Under the pieces are notes generated by a model, which was not told the origin of the DNA, ran no database searches, and saw only the letters and a list, made by a program, of their open reading frames with translations. From positions 1 to 54,039 of the forward strand of contig JAAYCX010000063.1 in assembly GCA_012729555.1 (NCBI GenBank): a stretch of 54,039 nucleotides of DNA, read 5' to 3'. The DNA comes from Acidobacteriota bacterium (GTDB lineage Bacteria; Acidobacteriota; UBA6911). The first letter of the stretch is position 1, and every line of letters begins with the position of its first letter. Below are positions 16,164 to 20,962 of this stretch, piece after piece. The position numbers and the translations under genes were made by a program.

Positions 16164-17138
16164 ATGCGAATGCGTTGGTGTGTTGCGGCCCTTTTCTTTG
16201 TTTTCGTCCCGGTGGCGCTCGCCCAGCCGGCGGTCAAGCCGGAGTGCGACCGCGCCTGCCTGGAAAACTACATCGACCGGTACCTGGACGCCATGATCGC
16301 CCACAAGGCGAGCCCGGACCTCTTCCACAAGAACTGCCGCTTCACCGAGAACGGCGTGGAACTGCCGCTCGGCGGCGAGGGGCTCTGGTACGGCATGTCG
16401 GGGAAGGGGACCTACAAGTTCTATATCCCCGACGTCGAGACGCAGCAGGTGGCCTTCATCGGGACCGCCCGGGAAGGGGGCGCCGCCCCGGGGGCGAAGG
16501 CCGCACCGGGGGCCAAGCCGGCCTCCCCCACCACGGTCGCCGTCGCCATCCGGCTGAAGATCCTCGACGGGCTGATTACCGAGGCCGAGCAGCTGGTCAT
16601 CCGGCCGGAACAGAGCCTGACCGGGGACACCCCGGCCTCCAAGTTCCCCCCCACGGCGGAAGCGGTGGAAAAGATGGGGGCGCCGCACGAGATCTTCACC
16701 CAGACCATTCCCGAGGCGGAGCGGATGTCGCGCGAGGAGCTGGTCGAGGTCGGGAACTATTACTTCGCCGGCCTGCAACGCAACGACGGCAAGGGCTACT
16801 ACCCCTTCACCGACGACTGCGTGCGCTACGAGAACGGCATGCTCTCGACCCGGGAGTGCAAGAAGCAGTTCGAGTCGGGACAGCTCAAGGGGATCGTGAC
16901 CCGGATCCGCGACCGGCGCTTCGTCGCCGTCGACCGCGAGCGGGGCAACGTCTACGCCTTCGGTTTCTTCGACCACCTCCCCATCAACTGGACCTGGCAG
17001 CTGGCGGAGATCTTCAAGGTGGAAAAGGGGCAGATCCGGCGCATCGAGGCCATTTTCCACCGCTGCCCCTACGGGATGAACTCCGGGTGGAGCACCTACG
17101 AGCAGGGGATGAGCGAGGAGCTGCAGAGCATCCGGTAG
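16164..17138 (+). CDS. secreted DUF8021-like protein
   Basis: This gives 324 residues with a signal peptide ending near VALAQPA. Two domains with SnoaL/NTF2-like features are visible. The first is CLENYIDRYLDAMIAHK with FTENGVELPLGGEGLW and LKILDGLITEAEQLVI; the second is NYYFAGLQRNDGKGYYPF with CVRYENGM and VYAFGFFDH. The FTENGVELPLG block resembles DUF8021. A Pro/Ala/Gly-rich linker (about residues 108-122) interrupts the first domain. AAGGAGGAAT is a strong RBS. Function is unknown; relatives often stand near esterases, as here near the tannase-like gene. Confidence 0.65.
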   Translation: MRMRWCVAALFFVFVPVALAQPAVKPECDRACLENYIDRYLDAMIAHKASPDLFHKNCRFTENGVELPLGGEGLWYGMSGKGTYKFYIPDVETQQVAFIGTAREGGAAPGAKAAPGAKPASPTTVAVAIRLKILDGLITEAEQLVIRPEQSLTGDTPASKFPPTAEAVEKMGAPHEIFTQTIPEAERMSREELVEVGNYYFAGLQRNDGKGYYPFTDDCVRYENGMLSTRECKKQFESGQLKGIVTRIRDRRFVAVDRERGNVYAFGFFDHLPINWTWQLAEIFKVEKGQIRRIEAIFHRCPYGMNSGWSTYEQGMSEELQSIR

Positions 17139-17156: not shown

Positions 17157-18731
17157 CTACGCCTCCCCGCCCGTGGTTTTCCTGGGGATGGTGGCGATGA
17201 TGAGGAGGGCGAGGAGCATCATCGCCGCACCGATCCAGAAGACGGCCCGCAGCCCCGCCTCGAGCGACCCGCGCACCGCGGCGAGGGTCCTGTCGAACAG
17301 CCGCCCGTCCCCGCCGGTCTTCGCCTCGAGCGCGGTGCGGAGATTGGCGAGGGCGGGGCCCGACAGCAGCGCCTGGGGGTCGTCGACGGCCTCGAGGATC
17401 CGCGCGTCCGCCGCCGGTGAGAGTTCCTCCGGCAGCGAGCGCTCGAGCGCCCGCGCGTAGGCGACGTTCATCGTAGAGCCCAGGATCGCGGGGGAGATGG
17501 CCGACCCGATATTCAAGAAGAAGAAGAGGGCCCCCATCGCCACCCCCAGCAGGCGCATCGGGACCGCGTTCTGCACCACCACCGTGTTGATCGTCGGGAT
17601 GACGCCGTAACCCAGTCCCGCCACCACGGCCACCGCCACGCTCCATGCGACGGGGGTGCCGGCGCCGAAGAGGATCAGGGCGAACATGGCGGCCACCAGC
17701 AGGCCGTACCCGGCCACGAACATCCATTTGAAGCGCCCCGTGCGGGCGATGGCGTAGCCGGCGGGAACCCCCATGAAGGCCGTCAGGACCCCGTAGGGGG
17801 TGGTGATGAAACCGCTGTGGAAGGTGCTGATCCCCTGGACCCCCTGCAGGAACATCGGGAAGTACATCATCATTCCCATCGTTCCGAAGGAGGAGAAAAA
17901 GGTGGCCAGCGCCACGGTGCTGAAGGAGCGGTTCCGAAGCACGATCGGATCGAGGATGGGCTCCCCGGCGCGGGTTTCGACCCTGACGAAGACGACCCAG
18001 CAGAGGGCCGAGAGGAGGAGGAGGCCCAGGATCGGGGTGGAGAGCCAGGGGAAGGTGGTGCCGGCGTAGGAAAAGGCGAGGATGGAACTCGAGGCCGCCA
18101 GGGCCATCCAGAAGCAGCCCTTGAAATCGATTTTGCGGCTCTTATCCCGGTTGGCCATGGAAGGGACCCCCAGGGGCACGGTGACGAGGCAGAGGACGAG
18201 CAGGGGGACCGCCAGCCAGAACAGGTAGCGCCAGTTCAGGGTATCCACGATGAAGCCGCCGAGGGCGGGGCCGGTCAGGGTGAACACCCCAAGCGGGATG
18301 TTGAGGAGGCCGACCCACTTGGCCCGCTCCGTGGGCGGGAAGAGATCGCCGACCACGGCGAAGACCAGGGGCATCATCGCCCCGGCGCCCACGGCCGCGA
18401 TCGCGCTCGCCACGATCAGGAACACGAAGGTGGGGCTGAGGGCGGAGAGGACGGTCCCGGCGAGCGAGGCGGACAGGGCGATCATGAGGATGAGGCGCCG
18501 TCCGAACATGTCCGAAAGCTTGCCGAAGATGACGGTTACCAGCGCCATGACCAGCGCGGGGATCGAAACGGACCAGGCGTACAGCGACAGCCCGTCCAGG
18601 TCGGCCGCGATCTTCGGCCGGGCGATGGTCAGCGTCTGCACCGAATAGGCCACCGTGCCGTAGACGGCGAAGATGGCCACCAGCCCCCAGAGAACCTGTT
18701 TCTTCGTATACTGTGCCCTTTCCTCTGCCAT
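17157..18731 (-). CDS. DHA2-type MFS exporter
   Basis: This gives 524 residues with about 14 membrane helices, the EmrB/QacA (DHA2) layout. FGKLSDMFGRRLILM is the motif A loop between helices 2 and 3, and the segment from SLAGTVLSAL through PLGVFTLTGPALGGFIVD carries the motif C-like helix 5. A long hydrophilic loop before the last helix (about residues 415-490, with AEARILEAVDD-like acidic stretches) is unusual in length. It should export a drug or small molecule by proton antiport. The start at 18731 is set by AAGGAGAG eight bases upstream; the frame is open to 18806. It ends convergently, 18 bases from the DUF8021-like gene. Confidence 0.88.
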   Translation of the reverse strand: MAEERAQYTKKQVLWGLVAIFAVYGTVAYSVQTLTIARPKIAADLDGLSLYAWSVSIPALVMALVTVIFGKLSDMFGRRLILMIALSASLAGTVLSALSPTFVFLIVASAIAAVGAGAMMPLVFAVVGDLFPPTERAKWVGLLNIPLGVFTLTGPALGGFIVDTLNWRYLFWLAVPLLVLCLVTVPLGVPSMANRDKSRKIDFKGCFWMALAASSSILAFSYAGTTFPWLSTPILGLLLLSALCWVVFVRVETRAGEPILDPIVLRNRSFSTVALATFFSSFGTMGMMMYFPMFLQGVQGISTFHSGFITTPYGVLTAFMGVPAGYAIARTGRFKWMFVAGYGLLVAAMFALILFGAGTPVAWSVAVAVVAGLGYGVIPTINTVVVQNAVPMRLLGVAMGALFFFLNIGSAISPAILGSTMNVAYARALERSLPEELSPAADARILEAVDDPQALLSGPALANLRTALEAKTGGDGRLFDRTLAAVRGSLEAGLRAVFWIGAAMMLLALLIIATIPRKTTGGEA

Positions 18732-18913
18732 CGATCTCTCCTTTGCAGCGAAGCGGCGGCGGGTGCCGCGGGGTCGAATTATGGATGAGACAATAACCCG
18801 TGCCAAATAGCAATATCTTTGTGGGGGATCCCCTGCCGGCGGTGTATAATGGCGCCACCCTGATTCATTTCGTCAAGTCGTCCCCGCTGGACCTGGCATA
18901 AGGAGGAGCGCGC

Positions 18914-20476
18914 ATGAATTTCCACCGTTTCCTGTCGGCCGTCATGCTGGCCGGCCTGATTTTTCCGGCCCGCCCGGCCGACGCACAGCAGTCGTGCGAA
19001 AGCCTCGCGTCGGTCAGGATCCCCAACGTCACGATCACCTCCGCGCGGGCCGGGAGCCCCGGGTTCGAGCTGCCGGCGCAGTCCGGCTTCCTGAACGCCC
19101 CGCCCCGGAAGGTCAACGCCCCCTTCTGCCGCATCGAGGCCTACTCGGCGCCGACGGCCGATTCCCATATCGGAATCGAGGTCTGGCTCCCCGCGGCGGA
19201 GAACTGGAACGGAAAATTCCTGGCAGCCGGCAACCCCGGCTTCATCGGCTCTCTTTCCCCTTCGGGCCTGGCCGCGATCATGGAGCGGGGGTACGTCGCC
19301 GGGGGGACCGACACCGGGCACGTGGACCCCGACTTCCAGTGGGCCATCGGGCATCCCGAAAAGTGGGCCGACTGGGGCTACCGCGCGGTGCACGAGATGG
19401 CGGTGGTGACCAAGGAGATGGCCCGGCGCTATTACGGCCGGCCGGTCCGGTATTCCTTCTGGAACAGCTGCCACAACGGGGGGAACCAGGGGCTTGCGGA
19501 GGCGCAGCGCTACCCGGACGATTTCGACGGCATCGTCGTCGGCGACCCGGCCTTCCACATCTCCCGCCTGCAGCCGGGATCGCTCTACATCAGCTGGGTG
19601 GCGCTCAAGGACGGCGTAGACGGGCCGGGCTACATCCCCGTCGCGAAGCTCGAGGTGCTCAACCGGGCGGCCCTGGAAGCCTGCGACGCCGACGACGGCC
19701 TGGTCGACGGCCTCATCGGCGACCCGACGAAATGCAGGTTCGACCCCGCCGTCCTCCAGTGCCGGGGGGCGGACGCCGCCACCTGCCTGACCGCGGGCCA
19801 GGTGGATACGGCCCGGAAGATCTACGCCGGGGCGAAATTCAAGGACGGCAGCCCGATCTACAGCGGCTTCGAGCCGGGGAGCGAACTGGGCTGGGCGTTC
19901 ATGATCGAGAAGGAGCCTTTCTCGGTCAATCTCAATTACTTCAAGGGGATGGTGTTTCAGGACCCCGATTGGGACTGGCGCACCTTCGACGTCGACCGCG
20001 ACACCCGCCTGGGGATCGAGAGGACCTCGAAATACGTCGACAACGACAGTCCCGACCTCAGGGCGTTCAGGCAGTCGGGGGGGAAGATGATCATGGTCTC
20101 TTCCTGGAACAGCCTGGCGCTCCCCCCGCGGCAGTTCGTCGAGTATTATAAGAGCGTGGAGCGGACGATGGGCGGGCGCGGGCAGACGCAGGATTCCGTG
20201 CGCCTCTTCTCCGTCCCCGGTTCCGGCGGTTGCCCCGGGTTTGTGATGAACGAAGGGGATTTCGACGCCTTTTCGGCGATCGAGAGCTGGGTCGAACGGG
20301 GGAAGGCGCCCGAGGTCATCATCTACTCCCACCGCAAGGCGTCCGGGGGGGGCGCCATGGGCGGCGGGGGAGAGGTCTTCCGGACCCGGCCCGTGTGCGC
20401 CTATCCCAGGGTGGCCCGGTACAAGGGGAACGGGGACATCAACGATGCCGCCAATTTCAGCTGCGTGGAACCATAA
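18914..20476 (+). CDS. tannase/feruloyl esterase-family protein with lost catalytic triad
   Basis: This gives 520 residues with a signal peptide (ending near RPADAQQ). The overall sequence follows the tannase family closely: CRIEAYSAP, NWNGKFLAAGNPGF, GTDTGH, AEAQRYPDDFDGIVVGDPA, and a C-terminal RTRPVCAYP.VARYKG.GDINDA.NF.C. The family's CS-D-HC motif should give Ser, Asp and His. Here the nucleophile position is His187 (SCHNGGNQG, normally GCSxGG), the Asp position is Ser400 (SWNSLALPP) and the His position is Gly439 (PGSGGC). The paired Cys186 and Cys440 are kept. It is therefore probably folded and secreted but not an esterase of the usual mechanism. RBS AAGGAGGAG is strong. Confidence 0.85.
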   Translation: MNFHRFLSAVMLAGLIFPARPADAQQSCESLASVRIPNVTITSARAGSPGFELPAQSGFLNAPPRKVNAPFCRIEAYSAPTADSHIGIEVWLPAAENWNGKFLAAGNPGFIGSLSPSGLAAIMERGYVAGGTDTGHVDPDFQWAIGHPEKWADWGYRAVHEMAVVTKEMARRYYGRPVRYSFWNSCHNGGNQGLAEAQRYPDDFDGIVVGDPAFHISRLQPGSLYISWVALKDGVDGPGYIPVAKLEVLNRAALEACDADDGLVDGLIGDPTKCRFDPAVLQCRGADAATCLTAGQVDTARKIYAGAKFKDGSPIYSGFEPGSELGWAFMIEKEPFSVNLNYFKGMVFQDPDWDWRTFDVDRDTRLGIERTSKYVDNDSPDLRAFRQSGGKMIMVSSWNSLALPPRQFVEYYKSVERTMGGRGQTQDSVRLFSVPGSGGCPGFVMNEGDFDAFSAIESWVERGKAPEVIIYSHRKASGGGAMGGGGEVFRTRPVCAYPRVARYKGNGDINDAANFSCVEP

Positions 20477-20485
20477 CGGGCAAGG

Positions 20486-20962
20486 ATGAAGATCGAGATT
20501 TCCATAGCCCGGCAGACCCTGACAGTGCTGGGGGACGGCGGGGAGACCCTTGGGAGCTACCCGGTGTCGACCGCCGCCCGGGGGGCGGGCGAAATCAAGG
20601 GGAGCGGGGGGACGCCGCGCGGGCGCCACGTGGTGCGGGCCAAAATCGGCGCCGGGCTCCCGCGCGGCGCCGTGCTGGTCAGCCGCCGCCCCACGGGGGA
20701 GGTCTGGTCCCCGGAACTGGCCGGACGGTTTCCCGGCCGCGACTGGGTGTTGAGCCGGATCCTCTGGCTTTCGGGGTGCGAAACGGGGGTCAACCGGCTG
20801 GGGGAGCGGGACACCATGCAGCGCTATATCTACATCCACGGGACGCCCGACACGGAACCGATGGGGGAGCCCCGCTCCCACGGCTGCATCCGGATGCGTA
20901 ACGCCGACATCCTGGAGCTGTTCGATCGGGTGCCGGCCGGTACCCCCGTGGAGATCGGCTAG
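20486..20962 (+). CDS. YkuD-type L,D-transpeptidase
   Basis: This gives 158 residues consisting of the YkuD domain alone. The catalytic motif is HGTPD...SHGCIRM, with Cys in SHGC as nucleophile. GTPRGRHVVRAKIG and YIYIHG are the usual flanking blocks. These enzymes make 3-3 cross-links in peptidoglycan or attach proteins to it in the periplasm. No signal peptide is visible (MKIEISIARQTLTVLG begins in the fold), so export would need another route or the enzyme acts elsewhere. It starts nine bases after the tannase-like gene and its stop overlaps the convergent symporter gene by four bases. Confidence 0.88.
   Translation: MKIEISIARQTLTVLGDGGETLGSYPVSTAARGAGEIKGSGGTPRGRHVVRAKIGAGLPRGAVLVSRRPTGEVWSPELAGRFPGRDWVLSRILWLSGCETGVNRLGERDTMQRYIYIHGTPDTEPMGEPRSHGCIRMRNADILELFDRVPAGTPVEIG

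Follow-up and report, generated by a model that had tools for sequence, protein, structure and literature searches.

The stretch of DNA analysed here (the window; 54,039 nt of contig JAAYCX010000063.1 from an Acidobacteriota bacterium) carries a gene of the tannase family with a divergent transporter gene on one side and an L,D-transpeptidase gene on the other (Table 1). The product begins with a Sec-like N-terminus, MNFHRFLSAVMLAGLIFPARPADA before QQ as judged by eye, and A24, Q25 and Q26 are invariant across the nearest 13 sequences. The initial annotation had given the gene an intact frame, a strong ribosome-binding site and a signal peptide, and these were found again, the signal peptide as a probable one.

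Table 1. Features in and around the tannase-family gene (positions in the window)
Feature	Position	Strand	Remarks
Secreted protein, genus-expanded family	16164..17138	+	Found near tannase-family genes
MFS efflux-type transporter	17157..18806	-	Divergent from the tannase-like gene
Ribosome-binding site AAGGAGG	18900..18906	+	7 nt upstream of the ATG; direct sequence reading
Tannase-family ORF, CH-type	18914..20476	+	520 aa, ATG start, no internal stop
Probable Sec signal peptide, residues 1-24	18914..18985	+	ADA before QQ; judged by eye
Pro108 codon	19235..19237	+	Adjoins oxyanion Gly109; Gly in 26/27 canonical relatives
Cys186-His187 codons	19469..19474	+	Active-site disulfide Cys; His at nucleophile elbow
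Asp211 codon	19544..19546	+	End of predicted strand beta-6; 'group B' acid position of alpha/beta hydrolases
Ser400 codon	20111..20113	+	Catalytic Asp position; Glu in the His-Glu-Met sister set
Gly439-Cys440 codons	20228..20233	+	Triad His position; second disulfide Cys
L,D-transpeptidase (YkuD)	20486..20962	+	9 nt downstream of the tannase-like gene

Feruloyl esterases and the PET-monomer hydrolase MHETase belong to the tannase family, which is mined for esterases by way of sequence annotation. The product matches the Pfam Tannase profile (PF07519) with 330.9 bits (E 1.9e-98), far above the curated cut-off of 29.8 bits and over positions 8-490 of 490, and this is its sole Pfam match at E <= 1. 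It also aligns over its full length with solved feruloyl esterases (6g21, 9hun and 8bhh) and with MHETase. The AlphaFold2 model has a mean pLDDT of 91.9 and a pTM of 0.90, and the ten-residue blocks that hold residues 187, 211, 400 and 439 score 90-95; as the core is confident throughout, the modelled fold does not look collapsed. The likeness to characterised members such as Aspergillus FaeB and MHETase thus covers profile score and full-length match, as well as the disulfide cysteines and the CDxxDGxxDG loop of the lid, whereas the window protein differs from them in having Ser, Asp and His replaced, a Pro for Gly beside the oxyanion glycine and an Asp for Ala after strand beta-6.

In alignments with 6g21, 9hun and 8bhh and with 27 canonical relatives, all of which carry Ser, Asp and His at the triad columns (27/27), the window protein has His187 at the nucleophile Ser, Ser400 at the Asp and Gly439 at the His. 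The earlier reading of CH-S-GC in place of the family motif CS-D-HC, with both motif cysteines kept, is confirmed by these alignments. Cys186 and Cys440, the disulfide pair of the family, are retained here and in every CH-type protein (one with His after the first motif cysteine) that is sequenced at these positions, with the pairing itself inferred from the family. Judged from the alignments, the hydrolytic Ser-Asp-His triad is lost beyond reasonable doubt, and annotation of the protein as an esterase is therefore unsafe; by sequence the protein is a PF07519 member that would stand outside the active tannases and feruloyl esterases.

Two changes that the initial annotation did not mention, Pro108 and Asp211, are also specific to this branch of the family. 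Of 6,671 family sequences, 91% have Gly at the position equivalent to residue 131 of MHETase (PMC7568301). With MHETase numbering transferred by alignment, the two-glycine oxyanion loop (131/132) reads Pro108-Gly109 in the window protein, so that the oxyanion Gly itself is kept. Asp211 follows immediately on predicted strand beta-6 (residues E206-210 in the AlphaFold2 model), and the end of this strand is a known alternative ('group B') acid position in alpha/beta hydrolases (PMC7034887). The spacing from elbow to acid, 187 to 211, is 24 residues.

The genome of the window contains seven tannase-family genes. The triad is intact in the six others, among which L007 (G000:C44:23323-24819) has neither of the motif cysteines (GTSQGG, TGHG). 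A tree of 53 sequences separates the 26 CH-type proteins from all others by one branch, with support of 100/100 and recovery in 200/200 bootstrap trees, and the CH-type branch thus has a single origin. A scan of 84,980 species genomes, together with searches of relatives, brought the total to 29 CH-type proteins in 16 genomes, namely the 26 in the tree, the fragment L097 and the later additions L137 and L138. As 28 further proteins have lost the triad in the same way, with His in place of the nucleophilic Ser, the change in the window protein is not a sequencing artefact. CH-type proteins were found in nine of ten sampled genomes of the window's own Acidobacteriota genus and in seven other genomes, among them records labelled Gammaproteobacteria (two) and Deltaproteobacteria (one); these taxon names may be wrong, because all members with readable records come from metagenome-assembled genomes.

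A degenerate-DNA scan of 396 Acidobacteriota genomes for CH[N/D/E/K]GGNQ found true members in the window's own genus only, and the wider pattern CHxGGxQ (second x being N, R, K, S, Q or H) found few members in the groups of G396, G397 and G398. Matches to the wider pattern in G051, G101, G485, G506, G546, G723, G745, G758, G776, G822, G829, G868, G879, G883, G898 and G910 were set aside as chance, with no tannase ORF at those places, and their number is in line with a reversed-pattern control. Relatives on plasmids are below 60% identity, the ten listed reaching at most 38.6%.

The residues that mark the branch are fixed to a high degree. Eight positions (P108, H187, D211, Q220, Y225, G234, A307 and D311) are branch-specific, that is, fixed in at least 95% of the branch and rare in canonical relatives. 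H187 and P108 are present in 26/26 branch members and D211 in 25/26, where the canonical relatives have Ser (27/27), Gly (26/27) and Ala (25/27), respectively. Three of the eight lie within a set of 39 active-site loop positions (hypergeometric P about 0.02, for a set that was our own choice). The branch thus has the conserved His and Asp at active-site positions that a His-Asp dyad enzyme calls for, the one exception at 211 being a Gly in the branch member L101:10036-11670. No alternative Ser-His-Asp triad made up of branch-specific residues was found when one was sought in the alignment. Asp211 alone proves nothing, because L004 (G000:C10:118185-119567) has Asp at the beta-6 position (GDPS) together with a canonical triad, so that both of its acid positions are filled.

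At the triad columns two fixed residue sets are found within the branch, one of which, His-Glu-Met, went unmentioned in the initial annotation. The outer sub-branches and L067, the earliest-branching relative of the window's sub-branch, have His-Glu-Met, with Glu400 in 13/13 and Met439 in 12/12 of those with sequence there. The sub-branch of the window has His-Ser-Gly, with Gly439 in 13/13 and Ser400 in 12/13, L078 having Gly at 400; Ser400 is also present in L137 and L138. His-Glu-Met looks like the ancestral active site of the branch, and on the tree the simplest order would be Ser/Asp/His to His/Glu/Met to His/Ser/Gly.

CH-type genes are under purifying selection, with a constraint no weaker than that on canonical paralogues. 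For the window gene and its orthologue in G004 the dN/dS is 0.138, and for two other CH-type pairs it is 0.144 and 0.108, as against 0.218 and 0.183 for two canonical paralogue pairs from the same genomes as the window gene and its orthologue, which bears out the earlier statement that the gene is maintained. Evolutionary constraint by itself cannot separate an enzyme from a binding protein.

The flanks of CH-type genes vary, and the recurrence of neighbours is reported here without a chance control. In the window there are no redox genes, and the MFS transporter, with homologues near CH-type genes in G004, G008 and G848, is the only link to the cluster seen in relatives. The L,D-transpeptidase gene is probably co-transcribed with the tannase-like gene; the same order of the two was otherwise found only in G004, and we regard the transpeptidase as probably an incidental operon partner. 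The secreted protein upstream of the transporter has no Pfam or PDB match. Its family has at least 16 copies in the window's genome and was found in each of the ten genomes sampled from the genus but not in any of 11 more distant relatives, and a copy lies within 10 kb of five of the seven tannase-family genes of this genome (P about 6e-5). It is the only family that recurred when a gene cluster common to the other tannase genes of the genome was sought.

Among the relatives, exported redox genes stand beside CH-type genes at L140, L141, L013, L017 and L068. In G848 and G854 the CH-type gene is part of a same-strand run with genes for an SMP-30-like protein, a multihaem cytochrome and a Tat-type aldo/keto reductase-ferredoxin fusion, and the run in G848 is adjoined by genes for an AFOR, a Tat-type iron-sulfur protein and a molybdenum aldehyde/xanthine-type oxidoreductase. 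The Tat-type aldo/keto reductases at L140:10418-11557 (-) and L141:2468-3607 (+) are fused to a ferredoxin-like 4Fe-4S domain, and both genes adjoin a CH-type gene and a multihaem cytochrome gene. AFOR genes flank the CH-type gene on both sides in G398 (L013), and genes for molybdenum oxidoreductases are found in the vicinity of CH-type genes in G001, G003 and G009. In G397 (L101:8422-13274) a gene for a flavoprotein of the p-cresol-methylhydroxylase/vanillyl-alcohol-oxidase type (637 bits against 9h40) immediately precedes two same-strand CH-type genes, one of which carries CHEGGNQ. No paper treating p-cresol methylhydroxylase and a tannase together was found in the open-access literature.

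We tentatively favor, at somewhat less than an even chance, that the window protein is a non-hydrolytic enzyme processing phenolic compounds, with a His187-Asp211 dyad as its general base. It would be an exported tannase-family protein of the alpha/beta-hydrolase fold that is no longer a serine esterase and has been retooled. The pocket under the lid could still bind a phenolic compound, and His187 at the nucleophile elbow may pair with Asp211 at the end of strand beta-6 to act as a general base or in acid-base catalysis. The step itself might be a deprotonation, an isomerisation, a hydration or dehydration, or a decarboxylation, in the manner of the His-Asp dyad of cofactor-free dioxygenases or of the His-only methylketone synthase, with the nucleophile dispensable, and its product could feed neighboring periplasmic redox enzymes. 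A bolder reading, in which the catalytic His of the whole branch has moved to the elbow and the acid to beta-6, with the rearranged site (His187-Asp211, possibly with Ser400 or Glu400) catalysing a reaction new to the family, seems to us rather unlikely.

Such chemistry has precedents on this fold. HOD has the nucleophile Ser101 and the acid Asp126 at a spacing of 25, and its catalysis relies on a His-Asp dyad, the nucleophile being dispensable (PMC10548524). HOD and the related cofactor-free alpha/beta-hydrolase dioxygenases QDO and AqdC resemble the window protein in the proposed His-Asp general base, at a spacing of 25 in HOD against 24 here. Their His, however, is in the usual triad place with Ser or Ala at the elbow, whereas here His is at the elbow and Gly or Met at the His place; moreover, O2-dependent reactions are unlikely beside AFOR-type genes, and these enzymes are not sequence relatives in the present analysis. 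The tomato methylketone synthase MKS1 likewise has an alpha/beta-hydrolase fold without a canonical triad and one catalytic His (PMC10548524), which is the likeness to the protein described here, but it belongs to another family, decarboxylates beta-keto acids and has its His at a different position. The zearalenone lactonase ZenA (Ser112 and Asp137, spacing 25; PMC10913051) and other 'group B' hydrolases share the acid at the end of strand beta-6, but they are true hydrolases in which Ser and His are retained.

The initial annotation had proposed either binding of a phenolic or sugar ligand without hydrolysis or a different mechanism. The loss of the triad is borne out, and a different mechanism is tentatively favored over simple loss because the residue sets of the sub-branches are fixed and a new acid has appeared at a known alternative acid position. 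A sugar ligand has no support here; the genes next to those of relatives suggest redox chemistry on phenolics or aldehydes. Binding alone is still quite conceivable, although we think it doubtful: the protein would then be a pseudoenzyme that keeps lid and pocket to bind, sense or deliver a phenolic ligand as a periplasmic binding or helper protein, where catalysis is unwanted. The loss of all three catalytic residues, the Pro beside the oxyanion glycine, the strong constraint over the whole protein and the presence of catalytic paralogues in the same genome would all fit such a role, while the fixation of the replaced positions to specific residues in each sub-branch, with a new acid at a known catalytic-acid position, speaks against it; so does the place of the G848 and G854 genes within a same-strand run of enzyme genes, which is compatible with binding too. 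A search of the open-access literature for tannase-family pseudoenzymes, or for members in which the catalytic Ser is replaced, yielded no report.

Hydrolysis by a rearranged triad, with Ser400 as nucleophile, His187 as base and Asp211 as acid, or by a water activated by His187, appears improbable. In the window's sub-branch, and in L137 and L138, Ser, His and Asp are indeed all at active-site positions, and other alpha/beta hydrolases do use the group-B acid position, but Glu400 in all 13 sister sequences and the Gly of L078 mean that Ser400 is not branch-wide, and the oxyanion loop is altered. A metal or redox site is very unlikely. It would consist of His187, Asp211 and Glu400 (with Met439) of the sister sets, which are fixed or nearly fixed and occur in a neighborhood of redox genes, with the window version derived from it; Glu and Met are, however, missing from the window's sub-branch, no known metal motif is present, and the Ca2+ loop of the family lid is a separate site. 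A His-Met site of the cytochrome or copper type was considered and dropped, as the Met is missing in this sub-branch. Finally, sequencing error, mis-assembly or a recent loss of function could be suspected where all members, as far as the records tell, come from metagenome-assembled genomes, but we give this hardly any credence in view of intact frames in many independently assembled genomes, the single origin with 100/100 support and dN/dS values of 0.11-0.14. Our preference for a retooled enzyme rests on the fixation of the new residues, one of them an acid at a recognised site for catalysis, and on the location of several of the genes among enzyme genes. We point out that the Gly211 of the L101 member and the Asp211 of L004 beside an intact triad count against a dyad enzyme, as does the lack of redox genes around the window gene itself, that the Pro beside the oxyanion glycine could mean that the site is simply closed, and that the loss of Glu and Met in the window's sub-branch could be read as further decay.

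In conclusion, the label 'tannase/feruloyl esterase family alpha/beta hydrolase' would make esterases of the CH-type proteins despite the absent triad. If they are retooled enzymes, they would offer a traceable rebuilding of an active site on one fold, of which both steps are still represented among extant lineages, and perhaps also a new activity towards phenolics in bacteria of springs, groundwater and termite guts.
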